A stretch of DNA of 41,977 bases, taken from positions 1-41,977 of IMG/VR virus record IMGVR_UViG_3300031565_000109. One strand, written 5' to 3'. This stretch comes from a virus. The notes beneath the pieces are model-generated. The model was not told the origin of the DNA. It made no database searches and saw nothing but the letters and a program-made list of their open reading frames with translations. Positions 4,949 to 41,977 of the stretch are shown in pieces. Made by a program: the position numbers and the translations under genes. Each line of letters starts with the position of its first letter. The stretch's first letter is position 1.

Positions 4949-4979
4949 ATTATCGCCCCCGTGAACCTTTTGCCCGCAA
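4949..4979 (-). promoter_or_regulatory. Promoter-like element driving the tail-tip operon
   Basis: On the minus strand, TTGCGG (4974-4979) and GATAAT (4949-4954) are separated by 19 bp. The -35-like hexamer lies inside the proximal palindrome of operator pair A. The same TTGCnn-19 bp-(-10) register occurs at 39085-39115 and 28524-28554. Transcription would begin about 10 bp before 4940, upstream of the distal tail gene. The spacing is longer than the usual 17 bp, so a helper factor or phage-modified polymerase may be involved. Confidence 0.5.
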
Positions 4980-5013
4980 AAGAAAAGATGCTCCAGGTTT
5001 TTGCGCAAAAACC
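4967..5013. promoter_or_regulatory. Paired-palindrome operator, copy A
   Basis: Two inverted repeats: CTTTTGC-CC-GCAAAAG (4967-4982) and the perfect 18-bp palindrome GGTTTTTGCGCAAAAACC (4996-5013). Centres are 30 bp apart, as in the three other copies in this window. A half-site CTTTTGC (4938-4944) lies nearer the gene. The location between a terminator and the distal tail gene, overlapping a promoter-like -35, suggests binding of a dimeric regulator at two sites on the same helix face. Confidence 0.65.
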
Positions 5014-5122: not shown

Positions 5123-7714
5123 CTACCGCCCCGCGATCACCTTTATCAGCCGGAAGTCTGAGACCACCGTAGACACCGGGGCCATACTGGTCATATTGAG
5201 GTTGTAGCTGTTGCTAACGGTCGTCGTTGACGCAGGTACAGCCGCCAGGGTGCCCAAGGTGACCTGACCCATCTGTAGCGCGGGTAGGTCCCCCATCGAC
5301 CGAATACCTTCCGCCAAGCTCCGTGAGATCTCCTGGCCTATACCGATGAATACCTTGGATGGTGAGCCCATAAGTAGTCTAACCTTGACCTCGTAGATGA
5401 TGGCCTCGGCCAGTTCCCTCACCCGGTTTATGAGCTGCTGCCACCAACGATTTATGCCAAGGATGAGGCCTTCTATGAACTCACCACCGAGTCTTGTGCT
5501 TTCACTAGATAAACGCCGTAATTCATCCACCACATCATCTACAATTCTGACTGACTTGCCTGTTAGTAGGTTATAGACGCTTTGCAAAGCCCCACCGAAG
5601 AATCCAATAAAGGTGATCATCCAGCCCTCGACAAACGTCTTAGTTCCAGTCAAGATACGTGGAATGTCAAGGCCGAATATTCCTTGCACGATATCGCCTG
5701 TGCCCTTCAGGACTTGATTAAAGCCACCGAATGAGGTTATCAGGCCCCTGATATAGCCCGTGGTTAGAATACCCGTAATAATCGCCGCTGGCCCAGCTAT
5801 ATCACCGAGGCTCTGAGCGATAGAACTCACGTCTGCAGCCAATCCCTTCCAGTCAACATCCTTGATGGTTTCAAACCAGCCTTCTATAGTCGTCTTCCAT
5901 TCATCTATCAAACTCTTCTGCTCCTTGCCCAGTTCCTCCAGGATGCCCTTTTGCTCCCCTACAGACTGCGTGAGCATCGCCCCCTGCTCCTGGTACGCAG
6001 CCAGCTTGGCCGCGTTCTCCTCGGCGATCTGCTCCCGTATGAGAGCAATCCGCTCTGTGGTTTCCTCACGTTGCAAGGTCTCCCTGCGCCGCGCCTCTTC
6101 CTCTTCCCTGGCCGTGCGCCGCGCAAAGTCCTCATCCTCACGGGCCAACCGGATGCGCCGATCCTCTGCCTCTAGGGCTCTCCGGTCCTTAAAGGCTTTC
6201 TCCTCTAAGGCGATGCGCTTCTCCAGAGCTGCTTGCTCAGCATCTATGGCGCTTACCTCTTCTTGTAGCGCCTCCTGGTTGCCCTGATGTTCAATGGCTA
6301 GTACATCGAGCCAGCCCTGAATGCGCTGCTTCTCTTCATCGGATTGCGCCTGAGCCAGCAACCGCTCGAACTGTGACCGCTGGGTTGCGTAGTCCTTCTG
6401 TTCGTCCTGCATCTGGGCCTTGATCTCTTGGCGTTGCTTGCCCGTGCGCAGCTCATCCAGCTCCGCGTACATGTCCGCCATCTTGCGGTTATGCTCCTCC
6501 AGGCCCCGCTCTCTACGCCGCTGCCAGTCCAGCTCATCCCTCAACCGCCCCAGGTTGAAATCAAATGTAGTCTGCACCAGCCTGCGGTTGTGATCGTCCC
6601 ACATGCGGGTGATGGACTTAGTGAGATCCCTGTTGGCGTCAATGATCTTCGTAGCCCCGCTCTCAAAAGCGGCTGCCAGGTTAGGGGCCTGTACTGCGGT
6701 CACCTTACCCGCCATCTCCTCCATGGCCTTGGTTACCTTCTTGGCACCCTCCGCCGTGGTCCCTAGCCAATCGCCTACCACGCGGGTCAGGGCTATGACC
6801 GGGGCCAGGAGCCTGTTGACGACCACAACTAACGCATCTAAGATAGGCCTCAGCCTGCCACCCTCCGACACCGCTGCGGTCAGCACCTTGACGAAGTCGG
6901 CGATAGCAAAAACCGCAGAACCCATGACCTGCTGGAACGGGCCACCCAGCTGCCAGATCATCTCCGGGATGAGTCTTCCTGTCAGCGTCCTCCACATCTT
7001 GGTCCAGGTGCCCATCGCCGCCTCGTAGGCCCCGCTGATAGCAACGCCTTGGGCTAATACCGCATTCATCATAGCCTGCACGCGCTCGGAGGCGGTCAAT
7101 TCCCTGCCAACCGCGCCGATGACGTCCTTGTAGTCCTCCATTGCCTGGTTTGTGTCCACGATGATGCCGTAGGTCCGTAGGACGATGGACCTCTGGGTGA
7201 GGATACCGTGCATCAGGCCTGCTAGGGCCTCGGTGCTATCCTCAGCTGCAAAGGTAGCCGCGTCCTGGGCCACAGCCGCCAGCTCTACGGCCTTGGTCGC
7301 GTCCATCTGGTAACGAATGAACTCTGCAATACTCTTAGTGGCTACGTCGCTGCGGATACCCGCGTCCACCATCGCGTCACGCCACTGGTAGAGCTGGCTT
7401 GCGCTGTAACCAGCCCGCGTGCCTAAGAGTTCCAGGATGACCTCAAGCTCCTCGACGCGCCCTGCACCAAACAGGGCCTCATACGCTACACTTTTCAGGC
7501 CTTCTACCAGGTTGGTGAACAGGTGCGCGCTGATGATGCCCGCGGCGATCTGCCCTACGTTGGCCAGCGCACTGCCCAGGATACCCAAAGGGGAAGCAGT
7601 GGCCGCAGCCGCGCCGCCCAGGCTTGACGCTGCCTTGTTGACCCTGTTCAGGTCATCGACCGCCTTGTTTGCGCCCTCAACCACTACCCGGACGCCGATG
7701 GTCTCTATTGCCAC
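5123..7714 (-). CDS. Tail tape measure protein
   Basis: 863 aa; one of the longest genes and placed directly after the tail chaperones, as in most siphoviruses. The N-terminus (IETIGVRVVVEGANKAVDDLNRVNK) is typical of tape measure proteins. An alanine/glycine-rich hydrophobic stretch follows (about residues 30-70). Residues about 390-600 form a long charged coiled coil rich in R, E, Q and A. More hydrophobic segments lie near 640-720. The protein sets tail length and is expected to be ejected into the host envelope. ATG at 7714 is preceded by AGGTGG. No lysozyme or peptidase motif was recognised. Confidence 0.88.
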   Translation of the reverse strand: MAIETIGVRVVVEGANKAVDDLNRVNKAASSLGGAAAATASPLGILGSALANVGQIAAGIISAHLFTNLVEGLKSVAYEALFGAGRVEELEVILELLGTRAGYSASQLYQWRDAMVDAGIRSDVATKSIAEFIRYQMDATKAVELAAVAQDAATFAAEDSTEALAGLMHGILTQRSIVLRTYGIIVDTNQAMEDYKDVIGAVGRELTASERVQAMMNAVLAQGVAISGAYEAAMGTWTKMWRTLTGRLIPEMIWQLGGPFQQVMGSAVFAIADFVKVLTAAVSEGGRLRPILDALVVVVNRLLAPVIALTRVVGDWLGTTAEGAKKVTKAMEEMAGKVTAVQAPNLAAAFESGATKIIDANRDLTKSITRMWDDHNRRLVQTTFDFNLGRLRDELDWQRRRERGLEEHNRKMADMYAELDELRTGKQRQEIKAQMQDEQKDYATQRSQFERLLAQAQSDEEKQRIQGWLDVLAIEHQGNQEALQEEVSAIDAEQAALEKRIALEEKAFKDRRALEAEDRRIRLAREDEDFARRTAREEEEARRRETLQREETTERIALIREQIAEENAAKLAAYQEQGAMLTQSVGEQKGILEELGKEQKSLIDEWKTTIEGWFETIKDVDWKGLAADVSSIAQSLGDIAGPAAIITGILTTGYIRGLITSFGGFNQVLKGTGDIVQGIFGLDIPRILTGTKTFVEGWMITFIGFFGGALQSVYNLLTGKSVRIVDDVVDELRRLSSESTRLGGEFIEGLILGINRWWQQLINRVRELAEAIIYEVKVRLLMGSPSKVFIGIGQEISRSLAEGIRSMGDLPALQMGQVTLGTLAAVPASTTTVSNSYNLNMTSMAPVSTVVSDFRLIKVIAGR

Positions 7715-7990
7715 CTACCGCTTCCCCTTTTTCTTGGCCTTACGCTCCGCGTCCTTGAGCAGCGCAGATTGTTTGTGCTGCTCTATCAGCTCATGATCCT
7801 CATGCCAGGCCAGAACCTTAGCCATGAACCGCAGGGGATAAAAGCCCCGGTCCCACAGGTACAGGTCCAAGCCCGCCGCGTTAGCAGCCTCCCACTGCAC
7901 GAAGTGACCGCTGGCCGTGATGCCCGTCTTGACTGCGTCCGAGAGGGGATAGTCCCGGATGGGTGTGCTATGCCGCTTAACCGCGAAAAA
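7715..7990 (-). CDS. Tail chaperone frameshift extension (GT-type), frame open from slip site
   Basis: An open frame follows the first tail chaperone and stops at 7715-7717. It reads ..AVKRHSTPIRDYPLSD.. then ..GHFVQWEAANAAGLDLYLWD.. and ends with a lysine-rich tail (KAKKKGKR). It has no ATG at its beginning. The upstream gene ends in CTT TTT CGC GGT TAA; the extension is in the +1 (= -2) frame, so slippage at the T5 run (7986-7990) would fuse the two. Programmed frameshifting between the two tail chaperone genes is a hallmark of long-tailed phages (lambda G/GT, usually -1; Mu-like phages -2). A separate GTG start near 7900 is the alternative. Confidence 0.6.
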   Translation of the reverse strand, partial: FFAVKRHSTPIRDYPLSDAVKTGITASGHFVQWEAANAAGLDLYLWDRGFYPLRFMAKVLAWHEDHELIEQHKQSALLKDAERKAKKKGKR

Positions 7991-8513
7991 GCTCGCGGAA
8001 TGCGGCCACGTCCTCCTCCCGGATACCCGACATCACAGACAGCGTCGCTATGACGCTAGTGCTAGTGTGGTACTTCTTGAAGACGAACTCCACCTCGTCA
8101 GGATCATCCTCATCGAAGTCGAAGCCCAGTATCTTGAGACGCTTCACCCACTTCGGCGGCACCTCGAACCCCTCGGGCAGCTCTACGCCCATCATAATTA
8201 GGGCGTCCATGACCGCCGCGTTACGCTCTTGCGCCGCCCGATCCATTGCAGCTAGGTATGAGGGGTCGTTCGGGTTCTCCTCGTCCCGCTCCTTGGCCTC
8301 GATGTAGACCACTGGGACCTTGGGGTCCTCGATGCGCAGCTGCACATCTTGTATCAGGGACGGGGCCACAGCATGCAGCGTGGCCGTGACCCCGTGTATC
8401 AGCGTCACCTCCAAGGGCTTCTCTGCCTTGTGCATCTCCTTGGCGGTCTCGATAGCCGCCAATGCAGCAGGCGGCAAGCCCTTCTTCTTGGTATGCTTCA
8501 CTTTTGTTGCCAT
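7977..8513 (-). CDS. Tail assembly chaperone (G-like)
   Basis: 178-aa acidic protein between the tail tube and the tape measure genes, the standard place for the first tail assembly chaperone. It starts with a basic N-terminus (ATKVKHTKKKGLPP) and contains an acidic stretch, FDFDEDDPDEVEFVF, around residue 135. It should coat the tape measure protein during tail assembly and not enter the mature virion. ATG at 8513 is preceded by GGGAGGATCTTCCC. It ends in a T-run that may cause frameshifting into the downstream frame. Assigned from position and properties rather than strong motifs. Confidence 0.7.
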   Translation of the reverse strand: MATKVKHTKKKGLPPAALAAIETAKEMHKAEKPLEVTLIHGVTATLHAVAPSLIQDVQLRIEDPKVPVVYIEAKERDEENPNDPSYLAAMDRAAQERNAAVMDALIMMGVELPEGFEVPPKWVKRLKILGFDFDEDDPDEVEFVFKKYHTSTSVIATLSVMSGIREEDVAAFRELFRG

Positions 8514-8541
8514 GGGAAGATCCTCCCAAATCCAAATATAG

Positions 8542-8650
8542 GTCCTGTCAATTCAGGACTAAGGGTCTTACATCAATGCCCCCTTGACGCTTCATAGGGA
8601 ACCTACTGGTCTAGCCCTCCACGCCCAGTGACCGCTGATTTATCGGTCAG
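8542..8650 (-). ncRNA. TnpB-less omegaRNA-like / IS605-type right-end remnant
   Basis: This sequence fills much of the gap between tail tube and chaperone genes and matches the 3' end of the tnpB gene at the other end of the window. A 21-bp block (8615-8635) is identical to 41334-41354, and CTTGACGCTTC (8583-8593) to 41299-41309. A hairpin at 8542-8559 (GTCCTG-TCAATT-CAGGAC, plus strand) corresponds to ACCCCG-TCATTT-CGGGGT at 41245-41262, with three compensatory pair changes. Another helix (8629-8634 with 8644-8649) is also kept, with a G-U to A-U change. The tnpB reading frame here is broken by a stop after residues KSAVTGRGG, so any conservation is of RNA or DNA-end structure. Either a stand-alone guide RNA scaffold or a decayed element end. 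Confidence 0.65.
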
Positions 8651-8656
8651 TATTTT

Positions 8657-10171
8657 CTAGTCCTCGCCCCAGATTATGATGCCGTCTGTGGCGCCGTCCA
8701 ACCCGACCGCGACCACCTGGTTGACATCATCCTCACACAGGGCAATGGCGTTCAGCCGACTGCTGGCTGGCAAGGCCCCTGCGCTCTCCGGTAGCACCAC
8801 GAAGCTGTTACCGCCGTTGTAGCTGCGCAGTAGCCGCCCCACCCCGGCAGCCGTGGTGTGCGAAACGGTCATCACATTGTCCGAGGAGAACGCGATATCA
8901 CTGACGGCACCCCCGGCCCAGTTCTGCCGCAGGTTCCACGTATCGCCTCCGTCCAAGGTCTCAAACAGCCGCCCGTCACTGGAACCGACCCACCACTCTG
9001 TCTCGGTCTTGACCCACACCGATTGTAGGGACGTGCCAAGGCCCACAGGCGCGCTCATGTGCTGCCAGGTGTCCCCACCGTTCCCTGTCCGGATCACTGC
9101 GCCTGCGCTGCCCACAGCCACACAGACGTTCCGGTTCATGGCGTGGATGGCCCACAAGGCGTTGGTCACCGCGTTGCCCGCTTCCAAGATAGTCACACCC
9201 GCTGTCGGGTCAGCAGTGCCGTACACATACCCGCCCTCAGCGGAGATGAAGGCGTAGTTGCCCACGCTCCAGATGTCCAAGGGGCAGGTTCCCGTTCCCT
9301 TGTCCACGAACCCCACAAGGTTCTCCACCCAGGTCTCGTCACCCACCGTGTCCAGATCAGCCTGTAGTACGTAGTGCAGGGAGCACGAGTCTGCTGATAC
9401 CACCACCACGTACCCGGCCAGGCATGCCAGCCCCGTCGGGTCCTCCGTTGCACCGAGTGAGTCGATCTCGCTGGTGGCCCAAGGCCCTGCCGCGCCGTTC
9501 AGCGTGTACACTACATCAGCAGGTGTACCCGGTGATCCGCCTGCTGCCAGGCTGACTGAGTACACCCTCTCGCAGCCGCCTGACTGGTCCGCGCACTCCC
9601 CGCATGATACGCTATCACAGACCACCACGTCCATGATCTCATTGGTGACAATGGCCGCCGCCACCTCTGCGAAGGCCATGGGGAGCACCTCGTAGAACTC
9701 CCTGGCGGATAGCTCCCCGGTCTCATTTATCGCTCCGCGGTCTCCCTCCTCCAAGGCACCGAGGGGGTCCGTGGAGTATTTGGTCATGTCAACATCTTCC
9801 CATACAACGGCCTTCTGGAAGACGTTGAACAGCTGCGGGTCTGTGCACACCCCAAAATGATAGTGCAGGTCAAATGCACAGCCGGTCCTGGCCAGCCGAA
9901 TCATCGTGCTCTCCAGGTCCGCCGCATACCGACCCACCAGTGAGCTTGAGGGCCGGTCTGATTCCGACTTGCTCTTCCCCCGCTCCACAAACGCATCGTA
10001 CTGCCGGTCGCTGGGACAATCGATCTTGGAGACGGTACCCAAGGACCAGTCTATCCCCCCGGCACTCATACACCCCATGTATACAGGCACATGGTCACCC
10101 CGTGCCCTCCCCTCGATGAGGAACACACGGCTGAATCCCTTTTGTGCTGGTGTTGCATTGCCGTTACTCAT
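8657..10171 (-). CDS. Major tail tube protein with C-terminal beta-propeller
   Basis: 504 aa. Residues about 1-190 look like a siphovirus tail tube protein (N-terminal FSRVFLIEGRARGDHVPVYMG; acidic, with EFYEVLPMAFAEVAAA). The rest contains propeller-like repeats of the BNR/Ycf48 type: DTWQHMSAPVGLGTSLQSVW, DGRLFETLDGGDTWNLRQNW, RLLRSYNGGNSFVVLP. In such repeats S-x-D-x-G-x-x-W motifs mark blades. A cysteine-rich linker (CDSVSCGECADQSGGC) separates the halves. The propeller probably decorates the outside of the tail. ATG preceded by GGAGGTGGAGA. Located directly before the chaperones, the standard tail-tube position. Confidence 0.72.
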   Translation of the reverse strand: MSNGNATPAQKGFSRVFLIEGRARGDHVPVYMGCMSAGGIDWSLGTVSKIDCPSDRQYDAFVERGKSKSESDRPSSSLVGRYAADLESTMIRLARTGCAFDLHYHFGVCTDPQLFNVFQKAVVWEDVDMTKYSTDPLGALEEGDRGAINETGELSAREFYEVLPMAFAEVAAAIVTNEIMDVVVCDSVSCGECADQSGGCERVYSVSLAAGGSPGTPADVVYTLNGAAGPWATSEIDSLGATEDPTGLACLAGYVVVVSADSCSLHYVLQADLDTVGDETWVENLVGFVDKGTGTCPLDIWSVGNYAFISAEGGYVYGTADPTAGVTILEAGNAVTNALWAIHAMNRNVCVAVGSAGAVIRTGNGGDTWQHMSAPVGLGTSLQSVWVKTETEWWVGSSDGRLFETLDGGDTWNLRQNWAGGAVSDIAFSSDNVMTVSHTTAAGVGRLLRSYNGGNSFVVLPESAGALPASSRLNAIALCEDDVNQVVAVGLDGATDGIIIWGED

Positions 10172-10181
10172 TCTCCACCTC

Positions 10182-11447
10182 CTACCACTGTACGGCCTGC
10201 CCCTTAATCAGACCGGGACGGCCTGAGATATTCTTCCACACGTGTACCTCTCCCCTGCGGTGCCCCAGAGGGCACTCTGGCGCGTCCATGCCCAACTGGT
10301 AACTGACCTCATCGGTTCTGGTCACATCTGTACGCCAGAGTTCGGCCTTCGTCCTGGCCGCTGAGCACGTACACAAGGGCCGCTCCAGCCTGGACGTCGC
10401 CAGGATGGCTATCAGGTTGGCCCAGTAGTCGCTCAGCGGATCGCAGCCTGGGGCCACCTCTGGCTGATATCCTGCCCGGTACCAGAAACGTACCGAATCA
10501 GGCTCTCTTACTTCAGTCCACGATGCAAGGGTAAAGGATTGAGCAGTTGCATCCCACACCCCAGGCTGCGGGACCACGGTGCTCTCCCTGGGGTCCTGCA
10601 CCCCAAAACAACCTGCTTGTATGCTGACAGCACAGGCCGCGGTCCTGCAACCCGGCTCGCCCCACAGGAATTGCACCTGCTCCGACGGGTCATTGTACTC
10701 TCGGTAGAACAGGAGTGTGTCCACATAACTAGCTGGGGCGTCCGCATCTATGCCCGTCGCGTTGAACGCCTCCTGCAGCTGCGGCTTGAACAGGCACCAT
10801 ATCGGGATCAATACCGTCAACGTCGTGCCTGATAGCGTAGCCGTTACGGGCTGCACTTCCCAGGCCGGGTCCGCTCCCGCGCTGGCCGGGTCAGTTCGGC
10901 AGTTGGTTGCGTCCAGCGCGGCGTAGGCCTTGAAATACGCCCTCAACTGACACACGTTGAAATCCGTCGCTACATTGATGATGGTGAACTGTGCCCACTC
11001 CGCGAAGCCGTCACCATCAGCGTCTACATCTGCGTCCCGTGTCACGTTGGCCGGGTCGATGGCTGTTACTGCCCTCTGCCCCCCGTACCACGTGTAGCCC
11101 CATTTGAGGTTCATGGGTTTGTAGTTACCACGCCGCGTTAGCCCGGTCCCGTACAGCTCCCGGCGGTGCGGCCTGGGATACGGGTGCCACTCATCCGAGA
11201 TCCACACCAGGGCGGGCCAGTACCCCGTGTGCAGGGCGATGTCTTGCTCCGCCTTGGCAATGAGGTCTGCCATCTGGTGTCGGCCCACATGGCTAGCGTT
11301 CTGCCAATCGTACTGCATCCACACACTGTTGCAGGTGCCCACGGGCCGGAGCGCACTGTATCCCCCCGCGAAGTGCAAAGGGTCCAGCCCCAGCCACTTG
11401 GCGTATCTGTCCAGTGACAGTAGAGTCGGTGTTGTATCCCTACTCAT
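10182..11447 (-). CDS. Virion structural protein, probable head-tail junction
   Basis: 421-aa protein between the glycosyltransferase and tail tube genes. It is not confidently recognised. It contains a calcium-loop-like acidic motif (DADVDADGDGFAEW, about residues 136-149) resembling EF-hand/dockerin D-x-D-x-D-G loops, and a cysteine-containing C-terminal half (CSAARTK, ECPLGHRRGE). A putative head-tail connector or tail-associated structural protein fits the location. Its ATG follows the stop of the glycosyltransferase gene by a few bases, with GGGTAGGGAGAG as ribosome-binding site. Confidence 0.5.
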   Translation of the reverse strand: MSRDTTPTLLSLDRYAKWLGLDPLHFAGGYSALRPVGTCNSVWMQYDWQNASHVGRHQMADLIAKAEQDIALHTGYWPALVWISDEWHPYPRPHRRELYGTGLTRRGNYKPMNLKWGYTWYGGQRAVTAIDPANVTRDADVDADGDGFAEWAQFTIINVATDFNVCQLRAYFKAYAALDATNCRTDPASAGADPAWEVQPVTATLSGTTLTVLIPIWCLFKPQLQEAFNATGIDADAPASYVDTLLFYREYNDPSEQVQFLWGEPGCRTAACAVSIQAGCFGVQDPRESTVVPQPGVWDATAQSFTLASWTEVREPDSVRFWYRAGYQPEVAPGCDPLSDYWANLIAILATSRLERPLCTCSAARTKAELWRTDVTRTDEVSYQLGMDAPECPLGHRRGEVHVWKNISGRPGLIKGQAVQW

Positions 11448-11453
11448 CTCTCC

Positions 11454-14084
11454 CTACCCTGAAACCGGGGCCACCAGCGCTGTGGGCAGCGACTGTGCCG
11501 GAACTAGCGTCTGTACACGCTTGAAAGGTAGATGCTTCACGTCGATAAAGTTGCGGGCATCCTCAGGGTGCACCAAGCCCACCCGCGAGTCATCGTTGTT
11601 CCCGAAGCGGTAGCTGCGCCCCGTTATGCCCCTGAACGTAGAGGTGCCCCGGTTTGAGCCTGTGTATTCCAGCCGCTCGAAGCCCGCTGCCTCTTTGGTA
11701 CTCCAGTTCTGAGGCGGGTCTATACTCATTGCTTGAGCCTGCCCGCACCCTCCGCATCTTGCCATCAAATCCTCCAGTGGGTATTTCTCTCTCAGCATAG
11801 TCGCGGTATCACTCGCCTGCTGGTCCCTGCGCTCCCCCGTAGCCAGGCGGTAGGTCATCAAGGGAGCGGACACACGCACGCCGCAGAATCCCGCCATGGC
11901 CAGCTTGAGCTGGAAGTCCCAATCTTCCCGCGTGTGCATCTCCTCATCGAAGCCCCCTACGGCCTGGAACTCGGCATGATCAGTGACCAGCGTTACCGCC
12001 CCCAGGCCGTCCCGCCACAGGCTCTCCACGCCGAAGTCGTCTACGGGGTACTCGTGTATCTCGCCGTTGGGCCACGATGACCACAAATCCGTGTAGACCC
12101 ACTTGCCCGTCTGCAGCCTGGCATCTATACACGCCTGCAAAAACCCCGGCTGCAAGTAGTCGTCTGCATCTAGGAAAGTAAGCAGGGGACCCCTGGCTGC
12201 CTCCACGCCCCTGTTCCGTGCATAACCTGCACCCTTTGACCCCGGCGTCTCCACCAGTGTTACATAGGGATATGCCCTTAGTAGCTGCTCCGGCAACGGC
12301 TCCCCTGTGTCATTTACCAGCACGCACTCCCATTGGCGGAACATCTGCGCCTCAAGGCTGTCCAGTGCGTCCACCACGATCTCCTCATGCCCTGGACCCA
12401 CGGGCACGATCACGCTGATCCACGGCGTATCGTAGGCCCGTACCGGGTGGCTGAATCTCTCTACTTCCGCCACACAAGCTAGGGGGAATTGTCTATCCTG
12501 AACCCACGGGTGCCACGCCAGCCAGTCCGGCTCCTGGTAATTGCCTTCCCCCAGCTTCTTCGTCACGTGGCCCGCACCTAGGGAGTAAAGGAACAGCGGT
12601 TCCTTGGTAGCCTGTACCCCGCCCCAGCCGTAAGCCCCCATGCGAGTCCAGAACTCCGCATCCTCGCTACCCGCGCCGTCTGGGCAATACCTTTTCCGAT
12701 ACCCGCCCAATCTCTCCCAGGCCTCCCTACGGAACACGCAGCACGTGGGGACCTGGTTGCGCCGTGCTATCTGCTGCTCGAAGTCGTAGCCGTCCGGCCA
12801 CCTGGACTGAGCTGCCTGGCCGTCCGGGGTCATAGCCCACAGCCCCGCAAATGACAGCCCCAATGACCGGTCTGCTTCCAGTGGCTCGATGCACCTGCTC
12901 AGGAACTCCGGTGCGATGGCATCGTCCGCATCCAGGCAGCAGACGTACTTTGTGTTGACACTGGCAATGCCCTTGTTCCGGGCCACCGCCACACCCTGAT
13001 TCTGTTGCTTGATGTATCGCACCCGGTTGTCTTTTTCATACTCTACTACGACCTGCCCCGTGTTGTCATCGCTCCCGTCATCTACTACCACTACATCTGT
13101 AAGCCCTTCATAGGTCTGTGCCAGGGCACTCTCTATGGCCCTTCCTACCTTGTCCGCGTAGTTGTGGGATGGGATGATCACCGCCACGTCTGCAGGGCGC
13201 TCCTGCCCTGCCAGCCTGTAGACCTCTGCCACTTGCTCACAGGCATCCCTCCAGTGATAATGCCTGGACATCTCACGCCCGGCCTCGCCCATCCTTACCC
13301 GATGTTGTAAGCAGTACTCCAGCCCTTCCCGTAAGTGATCGAAATCCCCTGGTGCAGATAACCACCCGTTGACTTGATGTTGCACCAGGTTCCCGATGTT
13401 GCCCCACGCAAATCCTAGCACCGGCACACCCGCTGCCATGGCCTCCAGGATGCCGATTCCGAACGTCTCTTTGGTCGTGCTCAGGTACACCCCTGCACCC
13501 TGCACCAGAAGCCGCATCCCATCGTACTCCTGTAGCCCAATGACCTCCACATTGTCAGGCGCATCCTGCGGCGCAAACGTGGACAGGAACTTCACCTCTG
13601 GCATCATGCGTGCCAGGTCTGCCATCGGGTAGGGCGTGCACACGTCAGCATCCCTATTCTTGTTCCACAGCACGTACCCGCCGCTCTCCTCGTGGTGATG
13701 CGCCCATTCATCCCACTCTATGCCGTGGGGAATCACATGGGGCTGAATGCGCAGGTCCCGCCTGAGAGTCATGGCCACCCACTCCGAGGGCACCGTGACC
13801 TCCCTGGCCACACGCAGGTTCTGAATGACCCCGCTGTTGGCCTTCCACTCCCACGCCTGGGCCTCATAGTCAGAGGTCCAGTACAGCCCGTGCAAATGCG
13901 CCACGTCGCAATCCGGGGCCATCCCCGCATGTACCGCTTTGACATCGTAGTCTGTGCCCTCGTCGGTGTTCACAACCTCCACACCGAACTCGGGCAGGTA
14001 CTGGCAGTACGCCTCCACGACCCGCTTTATGCCGCTCTCATGCGAGCGGAAGAACCGCTCCCCCGGCACCATCTGGACACGCAT
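11454..14084 (-). CDS. Triple-domain glycosyltransferase with virion-like C-terminus
   Basis: 876 aa. Residues about 1-300 are a GT4/GT-B glycosyltransferase (SHESGIKRVVEAYCQYLPEFG; the ETFGIGILEAMAAGVPV loop that binds the nucleotide sugar). Two GT2/GT-A domains follow: VAVIIPSHNYADKVGRAIES with VVVVDDGS and CLDADDA (about 305-400), and ISVIVPVGPGHEEIVVDAL with LTFLDADD (about 565-670). A C-terminal segment has CGGC and then FERLEYTGSNRGTSTFRG with TGRSYRFG, resembling small head-tail proteins of phages. Known families transfer sugars; the target is not visible in the sequence. The gene is inside the virion operon, so capsid or tail glycosylation is the simplest inference. ATG 14084 (GGAGATAGATTG before it); an in-frame TTG lies one codon earlier. 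Confidence 0.8.
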   Translation of the reverse strand: MRVQMVPGERFFRSHESGIKRVVEAYCQYLPEFGVEVVNTDEGTDYDVKAVHAGMAPDCDVAHLHGLYWTSDYEAQAWEWKANSGVIQNLRVAREVTVPSEWVAMTLRRDLRIQPHVIPHGIEWDEWAHHHEESGGYVLWNKNRDADVCTPYPMADLARMMPEVKFLSTFAPQDAPDNVEVIGLQEYDGMRLLVQGAGVYLSTTKETFGIGILEAMAAGVPVLGFAWGNIGNLVQHQVNGWLSAPGDFDHLREGLEYCLQHRVRMGEAGREMSRHYHWRDACEQVAEVYRLAGQERPADVAVIIPSHNYADKVGRAIESALAQTYEGLTDVVVVDDGSDDNTGQVVVEYEKDNRVRYIKQQNQGVAVARNKGIASVNTKYVCCLDADDAIAPEFLSRCIEPLEADRSLGLSFAGLWAMTPDGQAAQSRWPDGYDFEQQIARRNQVPTCCVFRREAWERLGGYRKRYCPDGAGSEDAEFWTRMGAYGWGGVQATKEPLFLYSLGAGHVTKKLGEGNYQEPDWLAWHPWVQDRQFPLACVAEVERFSHPVRAYDTPWISVIVPVGPGHEEIVVDALDSLEAQMFRQWECVLVNDTGEPLPEQLLRAYPYVTLVETPGSKGAGYARNRGVEAARGPLLTFLDADDYLQPGFLQACIDARLQTGKWVYTDLWSSWPNGEIHEYPVDDFGVESLWRDGLGAVTLVTDHAEFQAVGGFDEEMHTREDWDFQLKLAMAGFCGVRVSAPLMTYRLATGERRDQQASDTATMLREKYPLEDLMARCGGCGQAQAMSIDPPQNWSTKEAAGFERLEYTGSNRGTSTFRGITGRSYRFGNNDDSRVGLVHPEDARNFIDVKHLPFKRVQTLVPAQSLPTALVAPVSG

Positions 14085-24070: not shown

Positions 24071-24079
24071 CGTTCTCCC

Positions 24080-24123
24080 CTTTTGCACAAAAGGCTAGGC
24101 CAGCGTTTCCTTTGCTGGCAAAG
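24080..24123. promoter_or_regulatory. Paired-palindrome operator, copy B (inverted)
   Basis: CTTTTG-CA-CAAAAG (24080-24093) and CTTTGC-TG-GCAAAG (24110-24123), centres 30 bp apart. The pair is turned around relative to the other three copies: the perfect-type palindrome is next to the downstream gene and only 10 bp from its ATG. No -10 is found in the expected register in either direction. It occupies the whole gap between two structural genes, so it could act as a roadblock, operator or terminator. Confidence 0.6.
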
Positions 24124-24125
24124 AA

Positions 24126-24683
24126 TTAGGTGATAAGCTCGCGCCAGCCGTTTATGCCGAATGTCACCGTTGCACCTGCATCATTGGTCTGTGCCCTGAT
24201 AGTCCATGCCCCGCCCATGGCTGGTGTGATGACAATGGGTGGGCTAAGCATCGTAAGGCTTGGTGAAGGCACCGAAGAGGCAGCGCCAGTATCAAGGCCA
24301 AACATCATCGTCATCGCCGTAAATGCCCCCGTGCCATCCGCGTTTGCCGTGTAGCCTATCTCAAACTCACACGAATCGCTGAATGTGCTCAGATAGGCAT
24401 AGAGGCAAGTGATAACGTCCCTGTAGCCTGCAGTCGTTGTCCTGAGCAGGCCCGCATCCGTCAGCACCGTTGGCGCACCATTGATGCCCACCTTACTGTT
24501 CACCTTGTGGCAGAATGCTGTCCCCGCCCTGGCGGCAGCCAATGCTGGTTCGGACAGCATCACCACGTCACTCTGACCCAGCGTCCTGATATACGCAGTA
24601 CCGTCCGCGTCAATGTGCGGAGCCTGTGCTGGCCTATCTGGGTCAGTGTAGTTCCTGCCCGCAATGATTACCGTGTTAGACAT
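24126..24683 (-). CDS. Probable virion protein with T-V-I-I-A-G-R N-terminal motif
   Basis: 185 aa, beta-rich. It begins MSNTVIIAGRNYTDPDRPAQ, matching the motif of the 133-aa neighbour. Later segments such as SDSCEFEIGYTANADGTGAF and AWTIRAQTNDAGATVTFGI suggest a beta-sandwich of the capsid-decoration kind. Three such genes in a row downstream of the terminase suggest duplicated or co-adapted head decoration proteins. No specific family recognised. GAGGGGTATCCC precedes ATG. Confidence 0.62.
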   Translation of the reverse strand: MSNTVIIAGRNYTDPDRPAQAPHIDADGTAYIRTLGQSDVVMLSEPALAAARAGTAFCHKVNSKVGINGAPTVLTDAGLLRTTTAGYRDVITCLYAYLSTFSDSCEFEIGYTANADGTGAFTAMTMMFGLDTGAASSVPSPSLTMLSPPIVITPAMGGAWTIRAQTNDAGATVTFGINGWRELIT

Positions 24684-28523: not shown

Positions 28524-28554
28524 ATCATGCCACAGCCCAACCCTTTGCCAGCAA
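28524..28554 (-). promoter_or_regulatory. Promoter-like element at operator copy C
   Basis: TTGCTG (28554-28549) and CATGAT (28529-28524) on the minus strand, 19 bp apart, in the same register relative to the palindrome as in copies A and D. The -10 is weak (4/6). It would serve the small gene starting at 28507 and the two zinc-ribbon genes. Confidence 0.4.
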
Positions 28555-28586
28555 AAGAAACCGTCACCCCGGCTTTTGCACAAAAG
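28543..28586. promoter_or_regulatory. Paired-palindrome operator, copy C
   Basis: CTTTGC-CA-GCAAAAG (28543-28557) and CTTTTG-CA-CAAAAG (28573-28586), centres 30 bp apart. The distal palindrome begins two bases after the TGA stop of the lytic enzyme gene (TGAGCCTTTTG, as in copy D), so the element fills the gap exactly. Confidence 0.65.
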
Positions 28587-39084: not shown

Positions 39085-39115
39085 ATTATAGGTCACTAGA
39101 ACCTTTTGCTGGCAA
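39085..39115 (-). promoter_or_regulatory. Promoter at operator copy D
   Basis: TTGCCA (39115-39110, 5/6 match to -35) and a perfect TATAAT (39090-39085) on the minus strand, separated by 19 bp. The -35 lies in the proximal palindrome. Start site would be near 39078, about 10 bp before ATG 39068, leaving a very short leader containing GGAGG. Confidence 0.65.
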
Positions 39116-39147
39116 AAGAAAACCGCCTCCTGACTTTTGCGCAAAAG
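39103..39147. promoter_or_regulatory. Paired-palindrome operator, copy D
   Basis: CTTTTGC-TG-GCAAAAG (39103-39118) and the perfect palindrome CTTTTGCGCAAAAG (39134-39147), centres 30 bp apart. The distal palindrome follows directly after the stop of the Gam-like gene (TGAGCCTTTTG). This is the most symmetrical of the four copies and has the best promoter. Confidence 0.7.
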
Positions 39148-41021: not shown

Positions 41022-41057
41022 TTAGCCACAATACACTCTCATTATAGACCGTTAGAA

Positions 41058-41210
41058 CGAATCCCCCATACGCCCATGGGGTGCACGCCACCACGGCAAG
41101 CCCCTTTTGCATGATGTACGAATCCCCCACATGCGCATGGGGTGCACGCTTCGGAGCCTTCCTGGAGTGCCGGCGACCGGACGAATCCCCCACATGCGCA
41201 TGGGGTGCAC
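41058..41210 (-). CRISPR. Mini-CRISPR array, 3 repeats and 2 spacers, no cas genes
   Basis: Three 29-bp repeats at 41182-41210, 41119-41147 and 41058-41086; on the minus strand each begins GTGCACCCCAT and ends TGGGGGATTCG, resembling type I-E repeats. The first two are identical. The last has three changes in the centre, which extend the hairpin (CCCCAT-GGGCGT-ATGGGG), as is usual for the leader-distal repeat, so the leader should be at the 41211 side. Spacers are 41148-41181 (34 nt) and 41087-41118 (32 nt). No cas gene is present in the window, so host Cas proteins would be needed to process it. Confidence 0.82.
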
Positions 41211-41244
41211 CCTTCACAATAGCGATTGCCCACGCGCTGTGGAG

Positions 41245-41262
41245 ACCCCGTCATTTCGGGGT
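41245..41262 (-). ncRNA. Right-end hairpin of the tnpB element / 3' end of omegaRNA scaffold
   Basis: ACCCCG-TCATTT-CGGGGT forms a 6-bp stem just after the tnpB stop. In IS200/IS605-type elements such a hairpin is recognised by TnpA and forms the 3' end of the TnpB guide-RNA scaffold; the 16-20 bases after it act as guide. Here those bases are 41244-41225, and the CRISPR repeat begins 34 bases after the hairpin. A diverged copy exists at 8542-8559. Confidence 0.65.
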
Positions 41263-41270
41263 TGCGGGTC

Positions 41271-41977
41271 CTATGCATCTAAAACCTCCTGCTGCCCGCT
41301 TGACGCTTCATCGGGAGGACTTAAGGCCCCTATCCCTCCACGCCCAGTGACCGCCGATTCGTCGGCCAACTTTAGCGCCGCCGCAAGAATGTTCTGGGCA
41401 GCGTTTAGGTCCCTGTCATGAACAGCCCCACAATCGCAAGTCCACCTCCTATCTGAAAGCGTCAGATTATCATTGATGCAACCGCACTCGGAGCACAGCT
41501 TACTGGACGGGAACCAACGGTCCACAAACCTCAGTTCACTGCCGCTCCACGCGGTCTTGTACGTCAACTGCTGGCGTAACCGATTGAAATTGGAGTCTGA
41601 CACGGCCTTTGCCAAGTGACGATTCTTGACCATGCCTTTGACATTCAAGTCCTCCATAGCCACCAGTCCATAGTCCCTTACCACCTCCGCCGTGGCTTGG
41701 TGCGCCGCGTTCACCCGTGTATCCTTGATGCGCTTCTGTATCCGCTGGACTCTCAGCTTTGCCCTAGCCCGCCGCTTACTCCCCTTAGTCTTGCGGGATA
41801 GTTGGCGCTGTGACCGCGCCAGTAGCTTCTCTAGCTCATAGGTAGCCTTTGGATTCTCATATCGCTTCCCATCAGAAAGCGTCATTAGCGTTTTGATACC
41901 GACGTCGATGCCCACCACAGGGTCAGCACTACGATCCGGAGGATCGGGTATCTCAGTCTCAACGACGAAGGATGCAT
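41271..41977 (-). CDS. tnpB: TnpB RNA-guided nuclease (5' end outside window)
   Basis: C-terminal 235 residues. All RuvC catalytic motifs are intact: VVGIDVGIKTLMTLSDG (Asp), DYGLVAMEDLNVKGMVKN (Glu), GAVHDRDLNAAQNI (Asp). The zinc-finger has CSECGCIND and WTCDCGA. A basic helix (LSRKTKGSKRRARAKLRVQR) precedes the second motif. In this family the protein binds an omegaRNA transcribed from the 3' end of its own gene and cuts guide-matched DNA, aiding transposon retention. No TnpA is visible in the window. The end of the gene overlaps the scaffold sequence that is also found at 8542-8650. Confidence 0.88.
   Translation of the reverse strand, partial: ASFVVETEIPDPPDRSADPVVGIDVGIKTLMTLSDGKRYENPKATYELEKLLARSQRQLSRKTKGSKRRARAKLRVQRIQKRIKDTRVNAAHQATAEVVRDYGLVAMEDLNVKGMVKNRHLAKAVSDSNFNRLRQQLTYKTAWSGSELRFVDRWFPSSKLCSECGCINDNLTLSDRRWTCDCGAVHDRDLNAAQNILAAALKLADESAVTGRGGIGALSPPDEASSGQQEVLDA

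Follow-up and report, generated by a model that had tools for sequence, protein, structure and literature searches.

The omegaRNA of ISDra2 is the described guide RNA with which the locus presented here is most readily compared, and its scaffold of 116 nt is built from four stems plus a pseudoknot between the loop of stem 1 and the strand standing before the guide (PMC10097598, as far as the part of it available goes). TnpB is able to process its own mRNA, and in almost all of the tested orthologs a hairpin lies no more than 10 nt from the 3' end of the scaffold (PMC10278001, likewise available in part). Transposase-free remnants or mini-elements are also on record, as PATEs and tnpB-less IS605 ends of Halanaerobium (PMC7290912) and Haloquadratum (PMC3119063), PATEs being marked in the available parts of these papers by palindromes near both ends; in addition, TnpB has been found beside CRISPR arrays in viruses, namely CL131 with its type V-U2 system (PMC6293099) and landfill viruses (PMC12607003; both sources in part). 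Our literature search, which was partial in coverage, did not meet a stand-alone TnpB omegaRNA in a phage, and we do not claim that none is in print. TranC systems, in which a TnpB-like nuclease has an adjacent array, are transition systems between TnpB and CRISPR. Stand-alone omegaRNAs of another nuclease, IscB, were reportedly noticed in Ktedonobacter by Altae-Tran and colleagues in 2021.

Here we consider a stretch of viral DNA of 41,977 nt (the window; IMG/VR record IMGVR_UViG_3300031565_000109), in which a putative omegaRNA scaffold of 117 nt without a tnpB gene, which we call the solo unit, lies on the minus strand at 8533-8649, the TnpB nuclease being encoded apart from it, 33 kb away. 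Like the IscB omegaRNAs of Ktedonobacter, this is a guide RNA apart from its nuclease, with the difference that those belong to IscB and a bacterial chromosome and this one to TnpB and a phage. It resembles the ISDra2 omegaRNA in scaffold length, in a stem 1 with a pseudoknot loop, in stems 2/3, in the 3' hairpin and in a guide on the 3' side; unlike that RNA, it has no upstream tnpB or left end and stands alone in a phage tail operon. With PATEs and tnpB-less IS605 ends it has in common the character of a transposase-free remnant or mini-element, but it amounts to the omegaRNA part only, where PATEs, insofar as the cited parts describe them, have their two palindromes. The phage also shares with CL131 and the landfill viruses a TnpB-like nuclease with an adjacent repeat-spacer array, and differs from those viruses, on the same partial sources, in that its nuclease retains an overlapping omegaRNA while a second omegaRNA stands alone.

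The solo stretch matches the resident tnpB end with an E value of 2.4e-13 and 80% identity, and the identical block of 21 nt seen at the outset (8615-8635, with its counterpart at 41334-41354) is indeed there, in columns 15-35 of a three-sequence alignment; ACTGGGCGTGGAGG of this block recurs in the tnpB end of a Gammaproteobacteria MAG (L116). Along the minus strand, the scaffold comprises stem 1 (8629-8649; TGACCG/CGGTCA, 6 bp, with a loop, ATAAATCAG, that contains the pseudoknot partner), stems 2/3, a further helix, a 3' hairpin (8542-8559; GTCCTG-AATTGA-CAGGAC) and a pseudoknot strand. Two candidates for this strand were placed within 8527-8537 by comparison with the ISDra2 omegaRNA: ATTTG at 8537-8533, where the sister phage B has ATTCG, and GATTTG at 8532-8527. 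The hairpin ends at 8542 and the candidate strands end 9 nt on, at 8533, or 15 nt on, at 8527. Several traits expected of an omegaRNA are in view here: the sequence is homologous to the 3' end of a tnpB gene, it has stem 1 and stems 2/3, its 3' hairpin comes to within about 10 nt of the guide, and there is a pseudoknot, of which the strand was picked post hoc. Since two pseudoknot strands are possible, the guide would start at 8532 or at 8526, and the original prediction of a start at 8541 is probably displaced because the pseudoknot strand stands 3' of the hairpin; the inferred guide (8507-8532, minus strand) runs across the translation start of the downstream gene, ribosome-binding site and start codon included. 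Read in the tnpB register, the stretch gives LTDKSAVTGRGGLDQ*VPYEASRGH* (asterisks mark stops), and owing to the internal stop it does not encode the full TnpB tail. On the other side, a linker of 7 nt (8650-8656, minus strand) separates the stop codon of the upstream gene from stem 1, too little to accommodate a left transposon end; the 5' border of the unit is stem 1, a functional edge and not an arbitrary point in tnpB.

The solo copy was aligned with the tnpB omegaRNAs of the window's own phage (phage A; 41368-41236) and of phage B, and all 25 nested helix pairs are standard in each of the three copies. Four of these pairs have changed on both sides, three in the 3' hairpin and one at columns 71 and 104, within the further helix (columns 70-74 with 101-105), and two have changed on one side. 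The compensation first spotted in the hairpins thereby holds (GTCCTG/CAGGAC against ACCCCG/CGGGGT, where both sides differ in three of the six pairs and pairing is kept), as does the G-U to A-U change in the helix at 8629-8649, whose position corresponds to stem 1 of the ISDra2 omegaRNA. In the pseudoknot, which joins the loop of stem 1 to the strand preceding the guide, five of five pairs stand in the solo copy and in phage B, and one of five in the phage A tnpB copy; solo and B differ in it by one two-sided and one one-sided change. With the pseudoknot included, the comparison of the solo unit with the phage B omegaRNA covers 30 pairs, with 13 changed columns, five two-sided changes, three one-sided changes and no broken pair. 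When as many changes were placed at random, none of 100,000 draws left every pair unbroken at transition weights of 1 and 2, and the frequency of such draws was 1e-5 at weight 4 and 2.7e-4 at weight 10; for the nested pairs by themselves, weight 1 again gave none in 100,000 and weight 4 gave 2.6e-4. These values are optimistic because the helices and the pseudoknot were chosen after inspecting the sequences. When the partner strands were slid, paired cells fell from 95.6% to 34.5-46.7%, and of 500 shuffles, 4 attained the observed percentage paired, 1 the number of two-sided pairs, none the covariation score and 83 the number of pair types. The conservation of the predicted structure, as judged from these alignments, exceeds chance. 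The best single fold of the solo copy contains stem 1, stems 2 and 3, the further helix and the 3' hairpin; that of the phage B tnpB copy agrees with it, and that of the phage A copy partly differs. Folding energy alone fails to distinguish these omegaRNAs, with z values of -1.42 for the solo copy (its minimum free energy being equalled by 17 of 200 shuffles) and of -0.53 and +0.76 for the tnpB copies.

To place the unit, some knowledge of the phage records is needed. Window bases 542-41977 are the reverse complement of bases 62926-104364 of a longer record (G001, IMGVR_UViG_3300031566_000001) at 99.88% identity, and that record is best read as two related phages, A and B, joined by assembly at a shared tnpB block of 1.6 kb; its treatment as a single genome was dropped on this judgement. 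Phage B is also found alone, as a record of 69,345 bp (G003). The tnpB blocks of the two phages (G001:62226-63847 and 136022-137643) are 94% alike, the nearest aligned flanks only about 72-74%, and much of the 5' half is identical, the 5' halves of the genes differing in one short stretch; from this near-identity we conclude that the tnpB genes were probably exchanged between A and B. A recent exchange also accounts for the joined record of 143 kb. The solo unit itself sits between two co-oriented genes, at 8657-10171 upstream and 7977-8513 downstream, after which comes the tape measure gene (5123-7714). The names tail tube and chaperone that had been given to the two neighbours rest on position, neither gene having matched Pfam (at cut-off) or PHROGs. 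Elsewhere in the window, an intergenic repeat family of the form TTTTGC...GCAAAA lies near TATAATG-like motifs (4949-5010, 24079-24130, inverted, 28524-28585 and 39085-39146), perhaps as phage promoters or operators.

The downstream protein has no relative in our collection of 50,697 phage records; it is present at six loci, one of which (L003) is the window's own. At three others, in phage B and a further phage record (L004, L005 and L006; G002), both neighbour genes are kept, the gap between them is 39 nt against 143 nt in the window, and nothing of the solo unit is to be seen in it; the distant L008 (G005) also has a short gap at the site, by eye, and L007 ends before the gap. A DNA search of five records found the solo unit only in G001, with matches solely at tnpB ends in G003 and G004 and no match at all in G002 and G005. 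As the same gap is short and empty in relatives, the unit was gained here and not lost elsewhere, and the putative omegaRNA is an insertion in the phage A lineage between two late structural genes. It is known from one copy only. No DNA similar to it occurs in the 50,697 phage records; the core pattern in GTDB contigs matched three times, once at the L116 tnpB end and twice in what we read as unrelated sequence; and an RNA model run over 422,518 bases (phage records plus L116) returned tnpB ends and a weak L116 match, but no further solo copy. Rfam gave no TnpB-RNA match, its sole match being a guanidine-II motif below cut-off at 12002-12048. Two weak matches of the RNA model also turned up in 301 genomes of the phylum of G006 (L237:1501-1610 and L238:1501-1648), with no tnpB match in the 3.1 kb around either; the GAATTGAC hairpin loop is shared by L237.

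The nuclease that such an RNA might serve is intact in the longer record, as a full frame of 403 aa, of which the window holds the C-terminal part with the OrfB_IS605 and TNB domains (41274-41975, minus strand). In the PDB it is matched best by 9yyg, an AI-designed nuclease, and by the TnpB entries 8bf8/8h1j (E 1.9e-73), which we take to be ISDra2 TnpB, and LaTranC entries are among its structure-search matches. The RuvC motifs are in place at D193, E277 and D356/D358, residues whose roles we assume from comparison with ISDra2. PADLOC labelled the protein Cas12f (1.7e-79) and Cas12u4 (3e-77), models that may fail to tell TnpB and Cas12 apart. The gene's own omegaRNA lies at its 3' end (41236-41368, minus strand); at the pseudoknot position it reads ACAGC and makes one of five pairs. 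These five bases stand at window 41236-41240, against ATTCG in phage B, and as a cis pseudoknot strand they do not pair.

The best single reading, to which we give about an even chance, makes the solo unit an omegaRNA that stands by itself, is expressed along with the tail genes and serves the phage's TnpB in trans. It would be transcribed together with the tail operon, and TnpB made from the distant locus would recognise its stem 1, stems 2/3, 3' hairpin and pseudoknot, trim it on the 5' side and, once loaded, take its guide from the 16-20 nt that follow 8533 (or 8527); the nuclease would then be directed to genomes that have the guide sequence and lack the insertion, such as rival phages with an empty site. 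A TnpB-free guide RNA working in trans was already part of the original prediction, and the full scaffold, the compensated helices and pseudoknot, the RuvC residues and the gained insertion all speak for it, while the trans action is what we infer from them. As for targets, the 20 nt following 8542, once proposed as the sequence to look for, matched their own locus alone in IMG/VR. A guide from 8526 finds its best off-locus match within the five phage records at the unoccupied site in phage B and G002, with 17 of 20 positions and one mismatch within the first 16; this fits a guide that may be aimed at uninvaded relatives, and common descent of the site alone predicts an equal match. A guide from 8532 has no good match in the five records or in 33 further tnpB phage records, other matches of the two 20-mers in this set reach at most 16/20, and a 33-nt query from the guide region brought only weak matches in the phage collection.

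The chief rival, which we hold to be possible although on the doubtful side, is that the unit was orphaned recently: it would be what is left of a different tnpB element or mini-element that inserted here, carrying an omegaRNA already diverged from the resident one, and lost its tnpB and left end, and the remnant would be functionless and look intact since little time has elapsed. This matters for the original argument that a decayed fragment would not keep such pairing, which we now consider half right; it disposes of long neutral decay and leaves recent orphaning standing, because compensations could accumulate in an ancestor that still had another tnpB attached, and every one of them could predate the separation. 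It suits such a history that the solo frame stays in the tnpB register with one internal stop before its end, that tnpB has been exchanged between phages A and B, so that the solo unit may record an older exchange, and that in another phage record (G438) the left end appears, by eye, to be joined directly to the omegaRNA with tnpB missing between them. Set against this, no examined pair is broken and the core motifs are intact, the 5' border falls at stem 1 with no tnpB body or left end to be seen, and exact core patterns, which miss altered cores, gave no closer tnpB relative in IMG/VR and GTDB contigs.

An improbable alternative, in our estimation, is a minimal non-autonomous mobile element of the PATE kind, mobilised in trans either through a transposase of the host or through homing driven by TnpB, in which the omegaRNA would be retained because it helps the unit to persist. 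Its presence and absence between relatives, and a described Halanaerobium PATE that retains the tnpB 3' end and right end (PMC7290912, on the part available), would be in keeping with this, and so would some results of a survey of other tnpB phages. From the best 80 of 90 tnpB loci, 76 of which are not copies from A or B, we took 48, each from a different record; a Y1 transposase (E 0.001 or better) is present in 8 of the 48. Leaving aside these 8 and seven others (G413, G437, G441, G446, G448, G449 and G450), 33 were analysed (G451 without its last 1,877 bases), and with G001, G003 and G004 added, which are not independent, the set came to 36. When each record was compared with its own tnpB end, eight of the 36 gave a tnpB-free match with a minimum of 30 nt and an E value of 1e-3 or better; among the short matches, some adjoin the 3' side of tnpB or fall within an array; matches of at least 70 nt occur in three (G001, G408 and G438). 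G408 has four tnpB-free units (L137:2599-, L139:3848-, L139:6479+ and L139:15542+), each an omegaRNA with a right-end hairpin and a different downstream guide. All four have stem 1, a loop GGAAC that pairs with GTTC before the guide, and the right-end hairpin, in which one unit has two broken pairs; in three of them the aligned stretch includes a left-end hairpin, and no Y1 TnpA is on the record. Two of the four also contain an ORF of 86 aa whose end resembles a TnpB tail, by eye, and further partial copies exist. G438 holds at least one copy with a complete omegaRNA (L207, about 10739-10893, the one with the joined left end), and four tnpB stretches lie elsewhere in that record. Predicted tnpB-free omegaRNAs thus recur in phages, the window's unit being the most reduced of those found: like it, the G408 and G438 units are complete omegaRNAs without tnpB in genomes with tnpB elsewhere; unlike it, most of them keep a left end, and their tnpB lineage differs. 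At the solo unit there is neither a left-end hairpin nor, with 7 nt, the room for one, so the two palindromes of a PATE are wanting; the unit is single-copy in its phage, and no Y1 transposase (TnpA) was found in the window record, G001 or G003. The same two facts, the missing TnpA and the 7 nt before stem 1, weaken the earlier suggestion of a solo end recognised by a transposase.

Very unlikely indeed is a cis-acting RNA of the tail operon that merely descends from an omegaRNA and acts on the downstream gene through stability, processing or control of translation, as its place between co-oriented genes just 5' of a ribosome-binding site and a 3' hairpin fitting a weak terminator pattern might suggest, since the parts kept are those that TnpB contacts in ISDra2 (stem 1, stems 2/3, stem 4 and the pseudoknot; PMC10097598, in its available part), the pseudoknot strand would be unneeded for cis-control, and relatives manage without the unit.

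Directly behind the tnpB omegaRNA there are three CRISPR-like repeats with two unique spacers (41057-41215, minus strand), so that a TnpB-like effector stands beside a repeat-spacer array, as in type V CRISPR of the V-U4/V-F-like kind. Phage B has five repeats; the last repeat in each phage is altered, and the spacers differ. The repeats end in GATTCGT, which pairs 7/7 with the stem-1 loop ACGAATC of the tnpB omegaRNA, and their order of hairpin, GATTCGT and spacer resembles, by eye, the 3' hairpin and pseudoknot strand of the omegaRNA. The array repeats end in the very pseudoknot strand that the resident phage A omegaRNA lacks. An exact-pattern search of IMG/VR located the repeat in these phages and nowhere else; the repeat core, with up to three mismatches, was not found in 400 genomes of the G006 phylum (seed locus L115, from a Dehalococcoidia MAG), and Rhizobium plasmids have only a partial match of 22 nt. 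The repeat also bears a resemblance to type I-E repeats, and a host origin of that type is possible. None of the spacers, whether A1 and A2 or the four of phage B, was well matched within the five phage records. In IMG/VR the 18 nt that open A1 were found at their own locus only; those of A2 hit two further contigs, which agree with the complete spacer at 21 of 31 nt and were taken as chance.

CRISPR-like periodicity is seen at 11 of the best 80 of 90 tnpB loci, of which four are the A/B copies, two (L085 and L086) gave the same result and were counted once, and one (L068) was dropped for coding-like repeats. For the six distinct loci, the summed pairing of each stem-1 loop with its own repeat end was reached by 10 of 720 permutations; at five it comes to 3-7 bp, and L025 fails with 2. 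This suggests that such arrays may serve TnpB, against which the likeness of the phage A and B repeat to type I-E repeats has to be set. The arrays after other phage tnpB genes lie at L087 3869-4498, L088 3825-4199, L086 3856-3947 and L025 3668-3841; the L087 repeat includes a hairpin resembling the 3' hairpin of its omegaRNA. In L022, at about 2080-2445, omegaRNA-like sequence and an array stand upstream of tnpB, detached from its 3' end, and in L097, at about 2320-2400, an inverted repeat 5' of tnpB (GGGGTCA...TGACCCC), which another phage keeps paired via G-U, by eye, is possibly a left end or leader structure.

Very tentatively, and with more doubt than belief, we would place this phage between OMEGA and type V CRISPR, with the tnpB omegaRNA acting in a tracrRNA-like manner, the repeats supplying guides as an array, and the solo unit, within the tail operon, as a second, self-contained single-guide RNA. 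It is just as conjectural that the tnpB omegaRNA lost its own pseudoknot strand on the way and that the solo RNA, served by the same TnpB, is aimed at phages without the unit. If the solo unit is functional, a phage can carry a TnpB guide RNA separated from the gene of its nuclease and maintained by selection, which would be a move in the direction of multi-guide systems, and TnpB may serve phages in competition or homing with several guides at its disposal. Together with the neighbouring array, the unit offers a testable case of an omegaRNA split into tracrRNA-like and crRNA-like parts.
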